Shown piece after piece: positions 56,967 to 64,000 of a DNA stretch of 64,000 nt. Positions within the stretch are counted from its first letter, which is position 1. Every line of letters starts with the position of its first letter. The stretch is taken from assembly GCF_002943465.1 (NCBI RefSeq), contig NZ_PTQY01000004.1:310001-374000 (forward strand). The letters run 5' to 3'. This DNA comes from Rhodoferax sp. TS-BS-61-7. Lineage in GTDB: Bacteria > Pseudomonadota > Gammaproteobacteria > Burkholderiales > Burkholderiaceae_C. The notes beneath the pieces were generated by a model. The model saw nothing but the letters and a program-made list of their open reading frames with translations, made no database searches and was not told the DNA's origin. The translations under genes and the position numbers were made by a program.

Positions 56967-57929
56967 ATGCTCGACAACATCCAGGCCTTTCTCGACGTGC
57001 ACAAGGCGGGCACGTTTTCCGCCGCGGCCAAGCTGCACAACGTGGCGGTGTCTTCCGTGTCGCGGCAGGTGGATGCGCTGGAGCAGTCGCTGGGCGTGGC
57101 GCTGTTTCAGCGCAGCTCGCGCCGCCTGCTGCTCACCGATGCAGGGGAGCAGTTTTTGCCACGTGCGCAGCTCATCGTGTCGGAAATGGTGGATGCCAAG
57201 GCCGCGCTGCTGGACGCGCAGGCCGAGCCACGTGGCTTGCTGTCGGTGACTGCCACCTCGGTCTTCTGGCGCATGCACATTGCACCCACCGTGGCGTCGT
57301 TCATGCGGCAGTACCCGCTGATTGAGCTGGACTTGCAGCTCAGCGACCACTGGGTCGACCTGGCCGCGCAGCGGGCTGATGTGGCGATTCGCATTGGCAC
57401 CCTGCCCGATAGCGACCTGTTGGCCACGCGCCTGGCGCCCATGCTGCGCGTGGCCTGCGCCAGCCCCGCGTACATCCGGGAGCACGGCCGCCCTGCCAGG
57501 CCCGAAGACCTGCTGCACCACCGCTGCCTGTGCCTGCCCACCGCCCCCACGGGTTTGTGGACGTTTCCGGGTGTGAACCAGGGCAAGCCTTTGGCGGTGC
57601 AGGGGCGTTTTCGCAGTGGCGATGTGGATTCGCTGCTGGACGCCGCCGCGGCCGGGCTGGGCGTGGCGCACCTGGCAAGTTGGCTGGTCTACCAAAAGGT
57701 GGCGTCGGGCGAGCTGGTCAACCTGTTCCCTGACTCGGTGACGGCTACCGCGGCCGCGGTGGCCACGGCCAAGGGCCAGACGCCGGCCATCCATGCAGTG
57801 CGGCTCCAGGGGCGCTCCCACTCGGCCAAGGCGCAGCTGTTTATCCAGCACCTGAAGCAGGCCTTTGGCACACCGCCCTACTGGGACCGCGCGGTAGGCG
57901 CCGCACCCAACGCAGGGCCGGCGGCGTGA
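56967..57929 (+). CDS. LysR-family transcriptional regulator
   Basis: 320 residues from ATG 56967 (MLDNIQAFLDVHKAGTFSAA), followed by AKLHNVAVSSVSRQVDALEQ. A typical CrgA-like LysR with standard effector region. Divergent from the GST gene. Its stop overlaps the DTW gene start (TGATG). Confidence 0.92.
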   Translation: MLDNIQAFLDVHKAGTFSAAAKLHNVAVSSVSRQVDALEQSLGVALFQRSSRRLLLTDAGEQFLPRAQLIVSEMVDAKAALLDAQAEPRGLLSVTATSVFWRMHIAPTVASFMRQYPLIELDLQLSDHWVDLAAQRADVAIRIGTLPDSDLLATRLAPMLRVACASPAYIREHGRPARPEDLLHHRCLCLPTAPTGLWTFPGVNQGKPLAVQGRFRSGDVDSLLDAAAAGLGVAHLASWLVYQKVASGELVNLFPDSVTATAAAVATAKGQTPAIHAVRLQGRSHSAKAQLFIQHLKQAFGTPPYWDRAVGAAPNAGPAA

Positions 57930-58534
57930 TGAGCACCCCACGCCGCCGCCTTCTCTGCGCACAGTGCCTGCGCCCGCAAGCCACCTGCATCTGCCGCTTT
58001 GTCACGCCCACACTGCCCGTGTGTGAGGTGCTGATCCTGCAGCACCCGCTGGAAGCACAACACGCCAAGAACAGTGCACGCCTGCTGCACCTGAGCTTGC
58101 CCGGCAGCCGCTTGGTGGTGGGCGAGGCGTTTGACGATGCGGCGCTGCAAGTGCTGATGCCCGATGACAAGACCACCGTGCTGCTGTACCCGCCCACCGA
58201 CTACGCGGGCCATGCGGCGCCCGCGCCGCTGGACCCCGCGCAGCTTGCCGACCCACAAAAGCTAAGGCTGGTGGTGCTGGACGCCACCTGGCGCAAGAGC
58301 CGCAAGATGCTGCACCAAAGCCCCGCGCTGCAGCGCCTGCCGCGGCTGGCCCTGGACGATGCGCCCGCAGGCCGCTACGCGATTCGCAAGGCGCACGCGC
58401 CAGGGCAGCTGTCTACGCTGGAGGCCACCTGCGCCGCGCTGGCACAGCTGGAGGGAGATGCCGCGCGCTGGCAGCCGCTGCTGGCGGCGTTTGACGGCTT
58501 TGTGGCCCAGCAGCTCAATTTGGTGCCAAATTAG
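57929..58534 (+). CDS. DTW-domain protein, tRNA-uridine aminocarboxypropyltransferase type
   Basis: 201 residues. N-terminal Cys cluster (CAQCLRPQATCIC) that could bind zinc, then the family motifs LILQHPLEAQHAKNSARLL and LDATWRKSRKML, the D-x-T-W that names the domain. Family members (TapT/YfiP) add the acp3U modification to tRNA U47. Coupled to the LysR gene, probably just by transcription. Confidence 0.9.
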   Translation: MSTPRRRLLCAQCLRPQATCICRFVTPTLPVCEVLILQHPLEAQHAKNSARLLHLSLPGSRLVVGEAFDDAALQVLMPDDKTTVLLYPPTDYAGHAAPAPLDPAQLADPQKLRLVVLDATWRKSRKMLHQSPALQRLPRLALDDAPAGRYAIRKAHAPGQLSTLEATCAALAQLEGDAARWQPLLAAFDGFVAQQLNLVPN

Positions 58535-59922: not shown

Positions 59923-62112
59923 TTAGAACTTGTACTTCAGCGTCGCCGTGGTGCTACGCGGGGCGCCATAGGTGAGTTGGTTGTAGGCGTCAAACATGGC
60001 GAAATAGGTGGTGTCCAACAGGTTGTTGATGTTGATCTGGCCCGAGAGCTTTTTGCTGAAGTCGTAACGCACCATCAAGTTCACCAGTGCGTAAGCACCT
60101 TGCTCGATCCGCTCCGATACGTTCTGCGGATTGGTGGCATAGGTGTAGGTCGCGTCTTGCCAGTTCACGCCACCACCCAGGGTCAGGCCACTCAGGGCGC
60201 CGGGCAGGCGGTAGCTGGTAAACACCCGCAGCAGGCGGCGGGGGTTGATGGTGTTGACATCGGCACCGGCGGCATCGCTCATCCTGAACTGGGTGTAGCC
60301 CGCACTGAGGTTCCAGCCCGGGGACAGTTCGCCGGCCACATCCAGCTCAAACCCTTCGCTGGTGGCGCCCTTGGACGCACGGTAGGCGGTTTCAGCGGGG
60401 GTGGTGTTCGGGATGTTCACGCCCGTGCTCTGCGCCAGGTTGTCCTGGGTGATTTGGAAGATGGCGGCGGATGCATTCACACGCCCGTCCAGAAACTCGC
60501 CTTTCACACCCAGCTCTGTGCTCTTGCCCAAAATGGGGTCCAGGTACTTGCCGTTGATGTCGCGCTTTTGCTGCGGCTGGAAGATGTCGGTGTAGCTGCC
60601 ATACAGGGAGTAGCTGTCGCTCAGGTCGTAGACCAGGCCCGCGTAGGGCGTTACCTGTTGGCTCACCGTCATGGTGAATGGGTTGGTGGTTGCCGTGTCA
60701 CCCGCGCGCTCGTAGTTGCTCAGGCGCGCGCCCACCACCAGTTTCAGCGGGTCCGTGACGTTGAAGCGTGCCGCACCGTAGACCGCCTCTTGTTTGACGG
60801 TGCCCATGCTGTAGTACGACAACGCGCCCCAGGCTGGCTCGGCGTAGGAGCCGTCCCAGGTGTTGAAGTTGGGTGCCGAGCCGCCCGATGCGGAGCGGCT
60901 GTCGGCATTGAAGTTTTGCTTGGACTGCACGTAGCCCATGGACATCTCATGGGTGCGCCCCATCAGATCGAAAGGGCCGCTGGCTTGCAGGCTGATGTCT
61001 TCCTGTTTGGTCTTGACTTTGTAGGCGCCTGGCCAGGTGGACATGCCCAGACCGGTGCTGACATTGGGGGTGCCGTAGACGTACAGCAGGTAGGAGTCGG
61101 CGAGCCGATCGCTCGTGGTGTAGCTGGCTTTGAGCTTCCAGTCGTTGTCCAGCTTGTGCTCCAGCGTGGCGAAGTAGTCCTCGTACACCGAGGCATAACG
61201 CGTCCAGTCAGCTGCCGTGGTTTTGGAGCGGTCCCAGTTGGTACGCGCGCCGTTGCTGTACCAGACGGGCAAACCGCCCCACATGGCGCCGCGCTGGTTG
61301 TTTTCCTGGTGGCTAAAGCCCGCCGACAACAGCGTGTGGGTGCCCAGGTCAGCTTCGATGGTGGCGTACACCGTTTGGCGCTTGTTCTTGAGGTCTTCCA
61401 CCCAGCTGTCACGCTCCGAGTGTTCACCCACCACGCGAGCGCGCAAAGTCTTGGCCTCGTTCACAGGCGTGGACAGGTCGACGGCGGCGCGGCGTTCGTT
61501 CCAGCTGCCGAGGCCGAGTTCGGCAGTGCCGGTCAGCGCTTTGTTATTGGCGCGCTTGCGCACCATATTGATGGCCGCCGATGGGTCACCCGCACCGGTC
61601 GTCAATCCGGTCGAACCACGAACCACTTCCACGCGGTCGTACAGCGCCAGGCTGGTCATCACTTCGCCAGAGCTCCAGGCCTGGTCCCAGGTGGTCGGCA
61701 CACCGTCAATCATCAGCGCATTGATGTCAAACCCGCGGGAGATGAACTGGGCGCGGTTGGTTTCGTACTGGCGCACAGAAACCCCCGTGGTGTTGTTGAT
61801 CGCGTCGGTGATGTTCTGCAGACCCTGGTCTTCCATGCGTTGCTGGGTCACCACCGACACCGATTGCGGCGTATCGCGCAAGGACATGCTCAGCGGTGTG
61901 GCAGTTTTGGCCTTGCCGCTGGTGTAGGAGCCCGTGCCTTGCGTGACTTCGCCCTGGGTTTGGGCCTTGATGGTGACCTCTGGCAGCGCAACCGCGCTGG
62001 CGGGCGATTGCTGGGCATGCACAAACCCCGGAAGGGCCATGGCAATACACAGGCTGAGTTGCGAGACGTTGAATGGACCCGTGGCGCGGGCCGGCGCTAT
62101 AGCGTGTTTCAC
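59923..62112 (-). CDS. TonB-dependent siderophore receptor
   Basis: 729 residues from a GTG at 62112, preceded by AGGAAA. A signal peptide ending ...GFVHAQ, a TonB-box-like VALPEVTIKA, then a plug (RDTPQSVSVVTQQRMEDQGL, GFDINALMIDGVPT, VEVVRGSTGLTTGAGDPSAA) and a barrel ending in YKF. There is no N-terminal signalling domain, so it is not a FecA/FpvA sigma-linked receptor. The pattern fits the ferrichrome/ferric-hydroxamate group. A Fur box lies upstream. Start at GTG is based on the ribosome binding site and signal peptide; an ATG 54 bases earlier is possible. Confidence 0.93.
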   Translation of the reverse strand: MKHAIAPARATGPFNVSQLSLCIAMALPGFVHAQQSPASAVALPEVTIKAQTQGEVTQGTGSYTSGKAKTATPLSMSLRDTPQSVSVVTQQRMEDQGLQNITDAINNTTGVSVRQYETNRAQFISRGFDINALMIDGVPTTWDQAWSSGEVMTSLALYDRVEVVRGSTGLTTGAGDPSAAINMVRKRANNKALTGTAELGLGSWNERRAAVDLSTPVNEAKTLRARVVGEHSERDSWVEDLKNKRQTVYATIEADLGTHTLLSAGFSHQENNQRGAMWGGLPVWYSNGARTNWDRSKTTAADWTRYASVYEDYFATLEHKLDNDWKLKASYTTSDRLADSYLLYVYGTPNVSTGLGMSTWPGAYKVKTKQEDISLQASGPFDLMGRTHEMSMGYVQSKQNFNADSRSASGGSAPNFNTWDGSYAEPAWGALSYYSMGTVKQEAVYGAARFNVTDPLKLVVGARLSNYERAGDTATTNPFTMTVSQQVTPYAGLVYDLSDSYSLYGSYTDIFQPQQKRDINGKYLDPILGKSTELGVKGEFLDGRVNASAAIFQITQDNLAQSTGVNIPNTTPAETAYRASKGATSEGFELDVAGELSPGWNLSAGYTQFRMSDAAGADVNTINPRRLLRVFTSYRLPGALSGLTLGGGVNWQDATYTYATNPQNVSERIEQGAYALVNLMVRYDFSKKLSGQININNLLDTTYFAMFDAYNQLTYGAPRSTTATLKYKF

Positions 62113-62206
62113 TATTGTTTCCTGCAGATAAAACCAACGAACTGGCTGGCTTTCTGCGTAGCGCACCTGGTGCGGCTAGAAACAAATGGCTGGCTATAAC
62201 TAAATC

Positions 62207-62227
62207 TAATTGTAAATCATTCTCATC
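62207..62227 (-). promoter_or_regulatory. Fur box upstream of the TonB receptor
   Basis: On the minus strand GAGAATGATTTACAATTA resembles the GATAATGATAATCATTATC consensus with 7-1-7 spacing; AATGAT is exact. Confidence 0.7.
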
Positions 62228-62292
62228 TACAACGTTTTCAGGAGGGGCCATTCGGGCCGGGATTGACCGCACCCCACAGCCATGCGAGGTGA

Positions 62293-62967
62293 CTAAATTT
62301 GTCGCATGAATTTAAAAATCAAGATCCAGAAGCTCAGGATCAGCGAGGCCACCGGGAACTGCAGCGCGGTGGGCATGAAGTAGATGACCAGCACGCCGGG
62401 GCCCCACACACACCACACGGCAATGATGACGGGCAGGTAGCGCCGGCTCCAAAAGTCACCCGACGCCAAGGTGCGCAGGGTGCTGGTGCGAAAACCCTCG
62501 TCCTTCCAGAGGAAGACGGCCACCATGACGAAGTTGGACACCGGCGAGTAGACGAACTGGTCGAACAGCATCTTCTTGACGATGGTGGCCGCGTCGTTGC
62601 CGCTGCCAAACAGCGCCACCTGCACCGAATACAACACGTCCACCGAGATGCCGATGAGCCCGAACACCACAATGGCAAAGGCCATGTCGCGGGCTATGGT
62701 GCGGGGTACCGGCTGGCGCAGCACCGCCCAGGCCAGCAGCTCGGGCACCAGCACGGCAAACGCGGCGTAGGTGACGAAGGAGCCCGGATAACCCCAGGCC
62801 TGCTTGAGCATGCCCCACTGCGTGAGGCCGCTCTGCACGGCCGGGCTCCAAAGGTAGGCCAGCAAGAGCAACACCAGCCCGCTCCACAGCACCAGCCCCG
62901 GCCGCATATTGGCCAGCACCGCCGTGCGGACCTGGTGCAGGGCCGTGGGTTTGGGGGTTGCCCGCAT
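62293..62967 (-). CDS. Membrane protein resembling the Mpv17/PMP22 family
   Basis: 224 residues, about five to six membrane segments. Residues 131-142 read KKMLFDQFVYSP, and residues 188-205 W-G-P-G-V-L-V-I-Y-F-M-P-T-A-L-Q-F-P, followed by Trp213. This order and content matches the eukaryotic Mpv17/PMP22 signature as I recall it: KKMLLDQ, a W-P-x3-x-N-F/Y-x-x-P block and a final W. Bacterial members of that family are rare. The resemblance was made by eye only. The start overlaps the MYG1 stop by one base (TGATG), so the two are translated together. Downstream of it, 180 bases away, is the divergently placed iron operon regulatory region. Confidence 0.6.
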   Translation of the reverse strand: MRATPKPTALHQVRTAVLANMRPGLVLWSGLVLLLLAYLWSPAVQSGLTQWGMLKQAWGYPGSFVTYAAFAVLVPELLAWAVLRQPVPRTIARDMAFAIVVFGLIGISVDVLYSVQVALFGSGNDAATIVKKMLFDQFVYSPVSNFVMVAVFLWKDEGFRTSTLRTLASGDFWSRRYLPVIIAVWCVWGPGVLVIYFMPTALQFPVASLILSFWILIFKFMRQI

Positions 62968-63956
62968 CAGGCGGCAGCGGCCATGCGGGTCGCCAGCGCC
63001 AGCTCGGCCATCTGCACGGCGCCCTCAAAGCTGCGCGCGCCGCCGATGAACAGGTTCAGGTGGCAGAACACGCTGTCCGCCACGCCGTTCACCGCGGCCA
63101 GCTCGCCGTCGCGCAGGCCGGCCCAGGCATCGGGCAGGTCCATGCGCGCAGTGAAGGAGCCTGACTCCACGGGCACGGTTTTGATCTGGTACTGGTTGCC
63201 ATCAGAGTCGGGGTAGATGACAAACATCACCTCGGGCATCTCGTGCACCACCACATGCGTCCAGGGCATGCCGCCCTCTTGCAGGTGCAGCACGCGGCCA
63301 CCCAGCAGGCGTGGCGCGTTGCGCACGGTGTCCATGGCGCGCAGCTGCGCCACTTTTTTACTGATGGCGTGGTCCAGAAACTTGCGGGTGATGGCAATGG
63401 CTTCGCGGAAACGCGTTTCCAGCAGCGCGGCCTTGGCGGTGTGGTCCAGGCCCTGCTCTTCCAGCCAATGGGTGTTGAGCTGGGCGATGAGGCTGGACAG
63501 GCCAAAGATGCCGGGCGACACATCGCCCTGGCCGGTGTCCACAATGTCCAGGTACTGCACCAGCGAGTGGTCGATGGAGTTGACCACGCTGGCCACGGCC
63601 GCGTCGTCCAGCGTGTGGCCGTGGGTGGTGGCCCAGGCCTGCACATAGGCCGTACCAAAGGCCGACCACACCAGGCCCGCGCTGGCGTAGCCCACGCCAG
63701 GCACGACCACGCCGTCCACCTCGTGCGCGGGGCGCGCGCCGTCAAAGCCGCGCTGGTGGTGGTCAAAGCGGCCGGTGGCCGCATCCCAGGTGCCACCCAC
63801 GTCGACCACAAAGTCAGCGGTCTCAATCAGCTCTTGTTTGCGGGTGCGAATGAGGGTGTGCGATGGGAACACGCCCATCAGGATGCCCACGCCAAATACG
63901 TCGTCGGCATGGAAGGTGCCACTGTGCGTGGCGATGGTGGTGGTAGCAAGGGTCAT
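62967..63956 (-). CDS. MYG1-family metal-dependent phosphohydrolase
   Basis: 329 residues of the MYG1/UPF0160 family, related to DHH phosphoesterases. Motifs: THSGTFHADDVFG (His11, His16, Asp18/19), a DVGG loop and FDHHQRGF (Asp65-His66-His67), followed by IDHSLVQYLDIVDTG. Eukaryotic MYG1 is a 3'-5' RNA exonuclease active in nucleus and mitochondria. The bacterial role is open. The following membrane protein is coupled by a one-base overlap. Confidence 0.92.
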   Translation of the reverse strand: MTLATTTIATHSGTFHADDVFGVGILMGVFPSHTLIRTRKQELIETADFVVDVGGTWDAATGRFDHHQRGFDGARPAHEVDGVVVPGVGYASAGLVWSAFGTAYVQAWATTHGHTLDDAAVASVVNSIDHSLVQYLDIVDTGQGDVSPGIFGLSSLIAQLNTHWLEEQGLDHTAKAALLETRFREAIAITRKFLDHAISKKVAQLRAMDTVRNAPRLLGGRVLHLQEGGMPWTHVVVHEMPEVMFVIYPDSDGNQYQIKTVPVESGSFTARMDLPDAWAGLRDGELAAVNGVADSVFCHLNLFIGGARSFEGAVQMAELALATRMAAAA

Positions 63957-63982
63957 GGGTCGATTTTAGATGCCAAACAGGC

Positions 63983-64000
63983 CTCTAGCCCCCGATGAAT
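63983..64000 (-). repeat. Dispersed repeat, copy J, cut by the window edge
   Basis: GCCTCTAGCCCCCGATGAAT begins like copy A (CTAGCCCCCGTGGATAT) and runs off the window. Confidence 0.6.

Follow-up and report, generated by a model that had tools for sequence, protein, structure and literature searches.

What is a gene for an Mpv17-like membrane protein doing at the very end of a MYG1 exonuclease gene in a betaproteobacterium? The two genes lie near the end of the window, the whole stretch of 64,000 nucleotides from Rhodoferax sp. TS-BS-61-7 that was analysed. The preliminary description, made by eye, took them for an operon of two families best known in eukaryotes and proposed an old functional pair, for instance in the turnover of nucleotides or RNA at the membrane. 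The answer depends on the relationship of the membrane protein to the Mpv17/PMP22 family, on how far the pairing extends and on whether the two families keep company elsewhere.

The overlapping gene pair

The MYG1-family nuclease gene occupies positions 62967..63956 of the minus strand (329 aa, ATG start; identified by PF03690 and by alignment with a PDB chain). It is followed at 62293..62967, also on the minus strand, by a gene for a predicted Mpv17-like integral membrane protein (224 aa, ATG start; assigned from PF04117, its relatives and AlphaFold2 models). As first described, MYG1 ends one base inside the membrane gene. Base 62967 is common to both open reading frames, and the membrane-gene ATG sits inside a TGATG (62965..62969, minus strand) that also contains the MYG1 stop. 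The motifs named by eye, THSGTFHADD and FDHHQ in MYG1 and KKMLFDQ and the W-G-P...YFMP block in the membrane protein, are all present in the translations.

The TGATG overlap likely couples translation of the membrane gene to that of MYG1. A stop/start overlap is found at 19 of 19 junctions (TGATG, n=6; ATGA, n=12; GTGA, n=1), comprising one locus per genus genome (18, matched by score and sequence) and L009, which seems to belong to the same genome as L036; the GTG start, at the L015 junction, is our own reading. The draft locus L015 (genome G029) carries an in-frame TAG in its Mpv17-like gene, which points either to decay of the gene or to a fault in the assembly. The two genes may be co-transcribed. 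Scanning 61900-64000 by consensus detected neither a sigma-70-like promoter, a point against the operon reading, nor any terminator-like site on the minus strand. Both are under purifying selection, with dN/dS of 0.05-0.32 for the membrane gene (six pairs) and 0.09-0.14 for MYG1 (five pairs).

The family call for the first gene is borne out. The protein matches PF03690 with 248.6 bits (E 1.6e-73, residues 7-321), well past the gathering cut-off of 22.1 bits, and its nearest solved chain is the MYG1 exonuclease 24ah (E 1.4e-36). Its two motifs are intact and align with 24ah as HxGTFHxDD/E and DHHQ, which presumably bind metal. With its full-length match, intact motifs and relatives of solved structure, the window protein shows no difference in domain content from the MYG1 family (PF03690/UPF0160); what sets it apart is the overlapping membrane gene, which follows in part of one genus. 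By eye the motifs are also DHH-like, and we take the DHH-family nanoRNases and RecJ to be comparison systems, but neither Pfam DHH nor DHHA1 matches the window MYG1. NCBIfam gave no match for either protein of the pair. By homology, the window MYG1 is predicted to be a 3'-5' RNA exonuclease, as is the characterized enzyme, which acts on mitochondrial and nuclear transcripts (PMC9181182). The notion that MYG1 is specially eukaryotic is contradicted by a 2023 paper, according to which its homologs occur in all taxa (PMC10089162).

Relationship of the membrane protein to Mpv17/PMP22

The sole Pfam match of the window membrane protein is PF04117, at 14.6 bits (E 0.034) against a curated gathering cut-off of 27 bits, and it is confined to residues 173-214 on profile positions 15-57. 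Sequence searches of the PDB gave nothing significant (best E 2.2 and 1.2, and no match at all in one search). Alone, the window protein is sub-threshold; its relatives settle the relation. All 13 sequences of a first alignment (A1; 12 betaproteobacterial and one from Coraliomargarita) match PF04117, the best at 7e-5, and the next families match two of the 13 (E up to 10). For a wider alignment (A2), 75 distinct sequences were gathered, excluding matches below 70 bits or shorter than about 180 columns; without seven near-copies from the genus, A2 holds 68. PF04117 is matched by 50 of the 68, 17 other families by one each (E up to 1), and 18 members have no PF04117 match at E 1. One relative, L063, exceeds the curated cut-off with 29.7 bits. 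In single re-scans, which covered 48 of the 68 members and L031 as an extra, with E limits set between 1 and 0.001, all others were below the cut-off or had no listed match.

An alignment of the A2 profile with yeast Sym1 extends the likeness over most of the protein. The Sym1 sequence used was written out by hand and, as a control, matches PF04117 with 98 bits (3.2e-28). With hhalign the two align over 156 collinear columns (probability 93.3, score 49.5), placing family residues 53-219 on residues 10-176 of this Sym1 sequence. The best scores of the decoys were 20.2 for 29 membrane ORFs, drawn only from loci already collected and several of them from related species, and 19.3 for 100 shuffles. 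Against the same Sym1 sequence the family HMM scores 25.1 bits, and phmmer gives 15.8 bits for the best relative and 4.8 bits for the window protein. Among Sym1-aligned family columns conserved at 75% or more, the consensus is identical to Sym1 in 9 of 22, compared with 29 of 134 other columns; in window positions, the nine are G106, Y113, D136, Q137, 146, W185, W188, P199 and F213.

The bacterial proteins thus have in common with the Mpv17/PMP22 family (PF04117; MPV17, Sym1, PXMP2, PMP22 and Pex37) the collinear core, the DQ, W..W and P positions and the C-terminal stretch that matches PF04117. They differ in carrying about 50 extra N-terminal residues before the Sym1-aligned part, and in having an invariant Gln (Q203) where the C-terminal block of the Sym1 sequence used has an Arg (R160). 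On these comparisons the membrane protein is upheld as a distant homologue of Mpv17/PMP22, in the wider superfamily sense. The by-eye match of the preliminary description survives at the level of the family, through the relatives, L063 and the hhalign result; for the window protein taken singly, the PF04117 profile falls short of its cut-off. The 13/13 and 50/68 matches, together with a Sym1 alignment far above the decoys, rule out a chance motif.

The predicted structure is all helical, with a mean pLDDT of 87.5 from A1 and 90.8 from A2. Helices span residues 9-40, 42-58, 60-83, 91-120, 126-156, 170-197 and 200-221, with a short one at 162-166. The protein may share the four-TM helical fold of MPV17, but a Foldseek search of the PDB with the A1-based model returned nothing better than E 0.96 and does not confirm it. 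Among viral models (BFVD), the A2-based model is matched best by M1I2L4 (probability 0.99, E 0.49, TM 0.67 by target length), which ranks fourth for the A1-based model (probability 0.94, E 1.3). This unnamed viral protein of 147 aa may itself be Mpv17-like and is only a lead.

Among the matches listed in the open-licence literature, we found none that describes an Mpv17 protein from bacteria or an operon joining one to MYG1. The string 'MpV17' in PMC4602308 is the name of a virus with a reference number attached to it.

Distribution and neighbourhood of the two families

Close relatives of the membrane protein, sought in 84,980 species genomes, turned up at ten loci, nine betaproteobacterial and one in Coraliomargarita. 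In the window's genus the membrane gene occurs in 18 of 103 genomes (15 of the 51 good ones), one copy each, and MYG1 in 39, one of these a weak partial match. In all 18 genomes with the membrane gene, MYG1 lies directly upstream. The pair is therefore not peculiar to this strain, a possibility that the preliminary description had set against its own proposal and that the neighbourhoods now rule out. MYG1 is clear in 38 genomes of the genus, and 20 of these lack the membrane gene, though many are incomplete drafts. On a tree of genus MYG1 sequences (33 rows) its presence is patchy, with five label changes; this number is inflated, as G030 was scored absent though its contig ends inside the gene and L138 is an additional copy of MYG1 in G461, whose pair sits elsewhere.

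Beyond the genus the pairing was lost from view. A sample of 399 genomes of the order gave, among the best candidates scored, only the window's own genome and two weak partial matches (G245 and G261; E 2.4e-4 and 9.7e-4), which cover the N-terminal half only and which we put down to chance likeness between hydrophobic stretches. The wider A2 profile, run on 398 Pseudomonadota genomes, gave only the window's genome among the best candidates scored. In many genomes the best seven first-pass candidates were scored for these two samples and the best ten for Verrucomicrobiota, so the absences are unproven. Searches of plasmids and viral contigs with the window membrane protein found no relative. 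The phylum Verrucomicrobiota was sampled as that of the Coraliomargarita record (G435), and here the membrane family is present in at least 57 of 288 genomes, some of which have more than one match. In a tree without a fixed root, all genus sequences group together (SH-aLRT 100), and their long branch lies among the sequences from Verrucomicrobiota.

In the samples searched, adjacency of MYG1 and the membrane gene was found in one genus only. The idea of an old operonic pair does not hold up: no convincing further copy appeared in the order and phylum samples, and in Verrucomicrobiota the two genes lie apart. The pair is a genus-level arrangement.

Within the genus the pair belongs to a partly conserved block and could simply be inherited. 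Twelve distinct species have the pair with enough sequence around it, and in 11 of them a DTW-family gene follows downstream, on the opposite strand. In eight of the 12 it follows closely, while in L006, L007 and the window it stands farther off; L123 has no DTW gene within about 4 kb. In the window it occupies 57926..58534 of the plus strand (its homologs at L001 and L168, 86% and 74% identical, are DTW), 3.8 kb from the pair. Between them are a TonB-dependent receptor gene (59923..62166, minus strand, the strand of the pair; named by eye) and a PepSY-like gene, also named by eye. To judge from the spacing between pair and DTW gene in the eight species, which is too small for it, the TonB receptor is not part of the conserved pair. 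The two intervening genes have the look of an inserted iron-uptake cassette, and just upstream of the receptor gene an AT-rich stretch (62205-62240) holds TCATTCTCAT, which by eye we take to be Fur-box-like.

Upstream, the genes differ between loci. A chemoreceptor gene on the same strand, beyond the window's end, stops about 95 bases before MYG1, and L122 likewise has a chemoreceptor; L001 and L006 have a PnrA-like protein, and L003, L004, L007 and L008 a TIM-barrel protein. In genome G453 (L156), MYG1 is followed by the DTW gene at offsets that leave no room for the membrane gene, and on this evidence the locus is a presence/absence site for it.

The verrucomicrobial surroundings are of another kind. 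Gene calls in these loci, as in those of the genus, are crude longest ORFs, and they include the family gene itself in 43 of 59. A gene for a DsbD-type thiol:disulfide interchange protein stands by the Mpv17-like gene in nine of the 59 (L072, L075, L077, L084, L088, L093, L095, L097 and L120; two of the nine tested against Pfam, the rest by similarity), directly downstream in the seven of these where the family gene was called, and hints at a redox context. In three of the 59 (L010, L102 and L109; one of three tested against Pfam), a PfkB-type gene directly follows the Mpv17-like gene or genes. Two family ORFs stand one behind the other at L109 and three short ones at L102; these may be copies in tandem or broken copies.

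PF03690 matches occur in 47 of the 288 Verrucomicrobiota genomes, nine of them full length; any match was counted as MYG1, and 38 of the 47 cover only about the first 65 profile positions. The divergent MYG1-like group in these 38 genomes, for the most part encoded by open frames of some 280-350 aa, may deserve a family of its own. Both families were detected in 28 genomes, the membrane family only in 29, MYG1 only in 19 and neither in 212, a raw odds ratio of 10.8 (p 1.8e-11). Split by size, the ratio is 6.3 (p 5e-5) for the 97 genomes with 4 Mb or more and 3.7 (p 0.15) for the 191 smaller ones; presence and genome size were transcribed by hand for these statistics. Counting full-length MYG1 only, the membrane family is present in 6 of 9 genomes as against 51 of 279 others (p 0.0024). 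In the 28 genomes with both, the listed coordinates put the two genes on separate contigs in 19 and no closer together than about 190 kb in the other 9, and a tblastn search with the window MYG1 found none in the verrucomicrobial flanks that it covered.

Kinship was taken into account with a quick rpoB-domain tree with long branches, drawn from the highest-scoring rpoB matches. It covers 130 of the 288 genomes (both 24, membrane only 22, MYG1 only 12, neither 72), and 19 listed genomes are left out, among them G583, which has both families. In independent pairs differing in the membrane family, MYG1 on average differed the same way in 5.8 and the opposite way in 0.9 (median p 0.125, with p between 0.016 and 0.73); with the roles of the two families exchanged, the figures were 6.0 and 0.9 (median p 0.125). 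With kinship controlled, co-occurrence points in the right direction, is not significant and is only suggestive.

Possible function and origin

Our favoured reading, to which we give an even chance, is that the genus has a two-gene operon in which a MYG1 exonuclease and a transferred Mpv17-like gated pore or regulator would be made in step. The membrane gene would probably have arrived by horizontal transfer, either from Verrucomicrobiota or from a donor outside the samples, and have landed directly after MYG1. With the membrane gene right behind MYG1, a ribosome finishing MYG1 could restart on it. The protein, presumably located in the membrane, would oligomerise like Sym1, MPV17 and PXMP2 and serve small metabolites as a gated pore or as a regulator in the membrane. 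A permanently open pore of 1.6-1.8 nm would drain a bacterial inner membrane, so the bacterial form would have to be gated, narrower or not a pore. The pores reported for Sym1 and MPV17 are of this size, non-selective, admit metabolites and ATP, and belong to high-mass complexes (PMC6166979, PMC6767901). From our analysis, a gated small-metabolite pore or a membrane-potential regulator, expressed with MYG1, appears most likely. The protein would perhaps handle nucleotides freed by RNA turnover, or a stress that both genes answer; a nucleotide link to MYG1 is the natural guess from homology.

It is quite plausible, if short of probable, that the Mpv17 homology is real and the pairing an accident of where the gene landed, the second gene borrowing the promoter and ribosomes of MYG1 with no link to RNA. 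The restriction of the pairing to one genus in the samples searched fits such an accident, as do the separate positions in the 28 Verrucomicrobiota genomes with both genes, the direct passage from MYG1 to the DTW gene in G453, and the DsbD-type or PfkB neighbours, which are not RNA enzymes, at some verrucomicrobial loci. Adjacency that may be one inherited genus-level arrangement is, moreover, weak evidence for shared function. Against an accident, the overlap is kept at every junction examined, with three different overlap sequences; the families co-occur in the raw counts and in the genomes of at least 4 Mb, but not clearly in the smaller ones; and the independent pairs lean the same way, though not significantly.

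Two further explanations concern the protein itself. A member of the Mpv17 superfamily that is no channel but serves in assembly or stress, tethering MYG1 or RNA to the membrane, would suit the constant place of MYG1 upstream in the 18 genus genomes, the reported part of MPV17L2 in mitochondrial ribosome assembly (PMC4117752) and the action of MYG1 on the 3' ends of mitochondrial mRNA and rRNA (PMC9181182); the model, helical throughout, has no visible soluble RNA-binding or tether domain, and we consider such a tether improbable. That the protein is not related to Mpv17 at all, its aromatic, proline-rich end resembling PF04117 by convergence, strikes us as very improbable. The sub-threshold score over a matched stretch of just 42 residues and the lack of a solved structure for comparison would allow it, but diverse relatives match PF04117 repeatedly with no rival family, and the collinear Sym1 alignment far exceeds decoys and shuffles.

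More broadly, the bacterial family, common in Verrucomicrobiota, could be a prokaryotic branch ancestral to the Mpv17/PMP22 channels of mitochondria and peroxisomes or sharing an ancestor with them. It would be partnered with MYG1-type nucleases to move or sense nucleotides set free by RNA turnover, a partnership of which the Rhodoferax operon would be the version with coupled expression. We offer this tentatively and think it rather unlikely. A 2006 survey labels the origin of peroxisomal PMP22 'euk' (PMC1472686). In humans, MPV17 mutations cause a mitochondrial DNA depletion disease, and the cargo of the channel is given as unknown (PMC6166979).

The larger result is the bacterial Mpv17-like branch itself. 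As the membrane family is widespread in another phylum, bacteria may be a simple setting for Mpv17 function, and so diverse a branch would offer simple hosts in which to study the cargo of the family, a broader alignment from which to predict structures and a clue to where the family arose. The overlap with MYG1, whose relatives are mitochondrial and nuclear RNA exonucleases, names a testable partner for the membrane protein.
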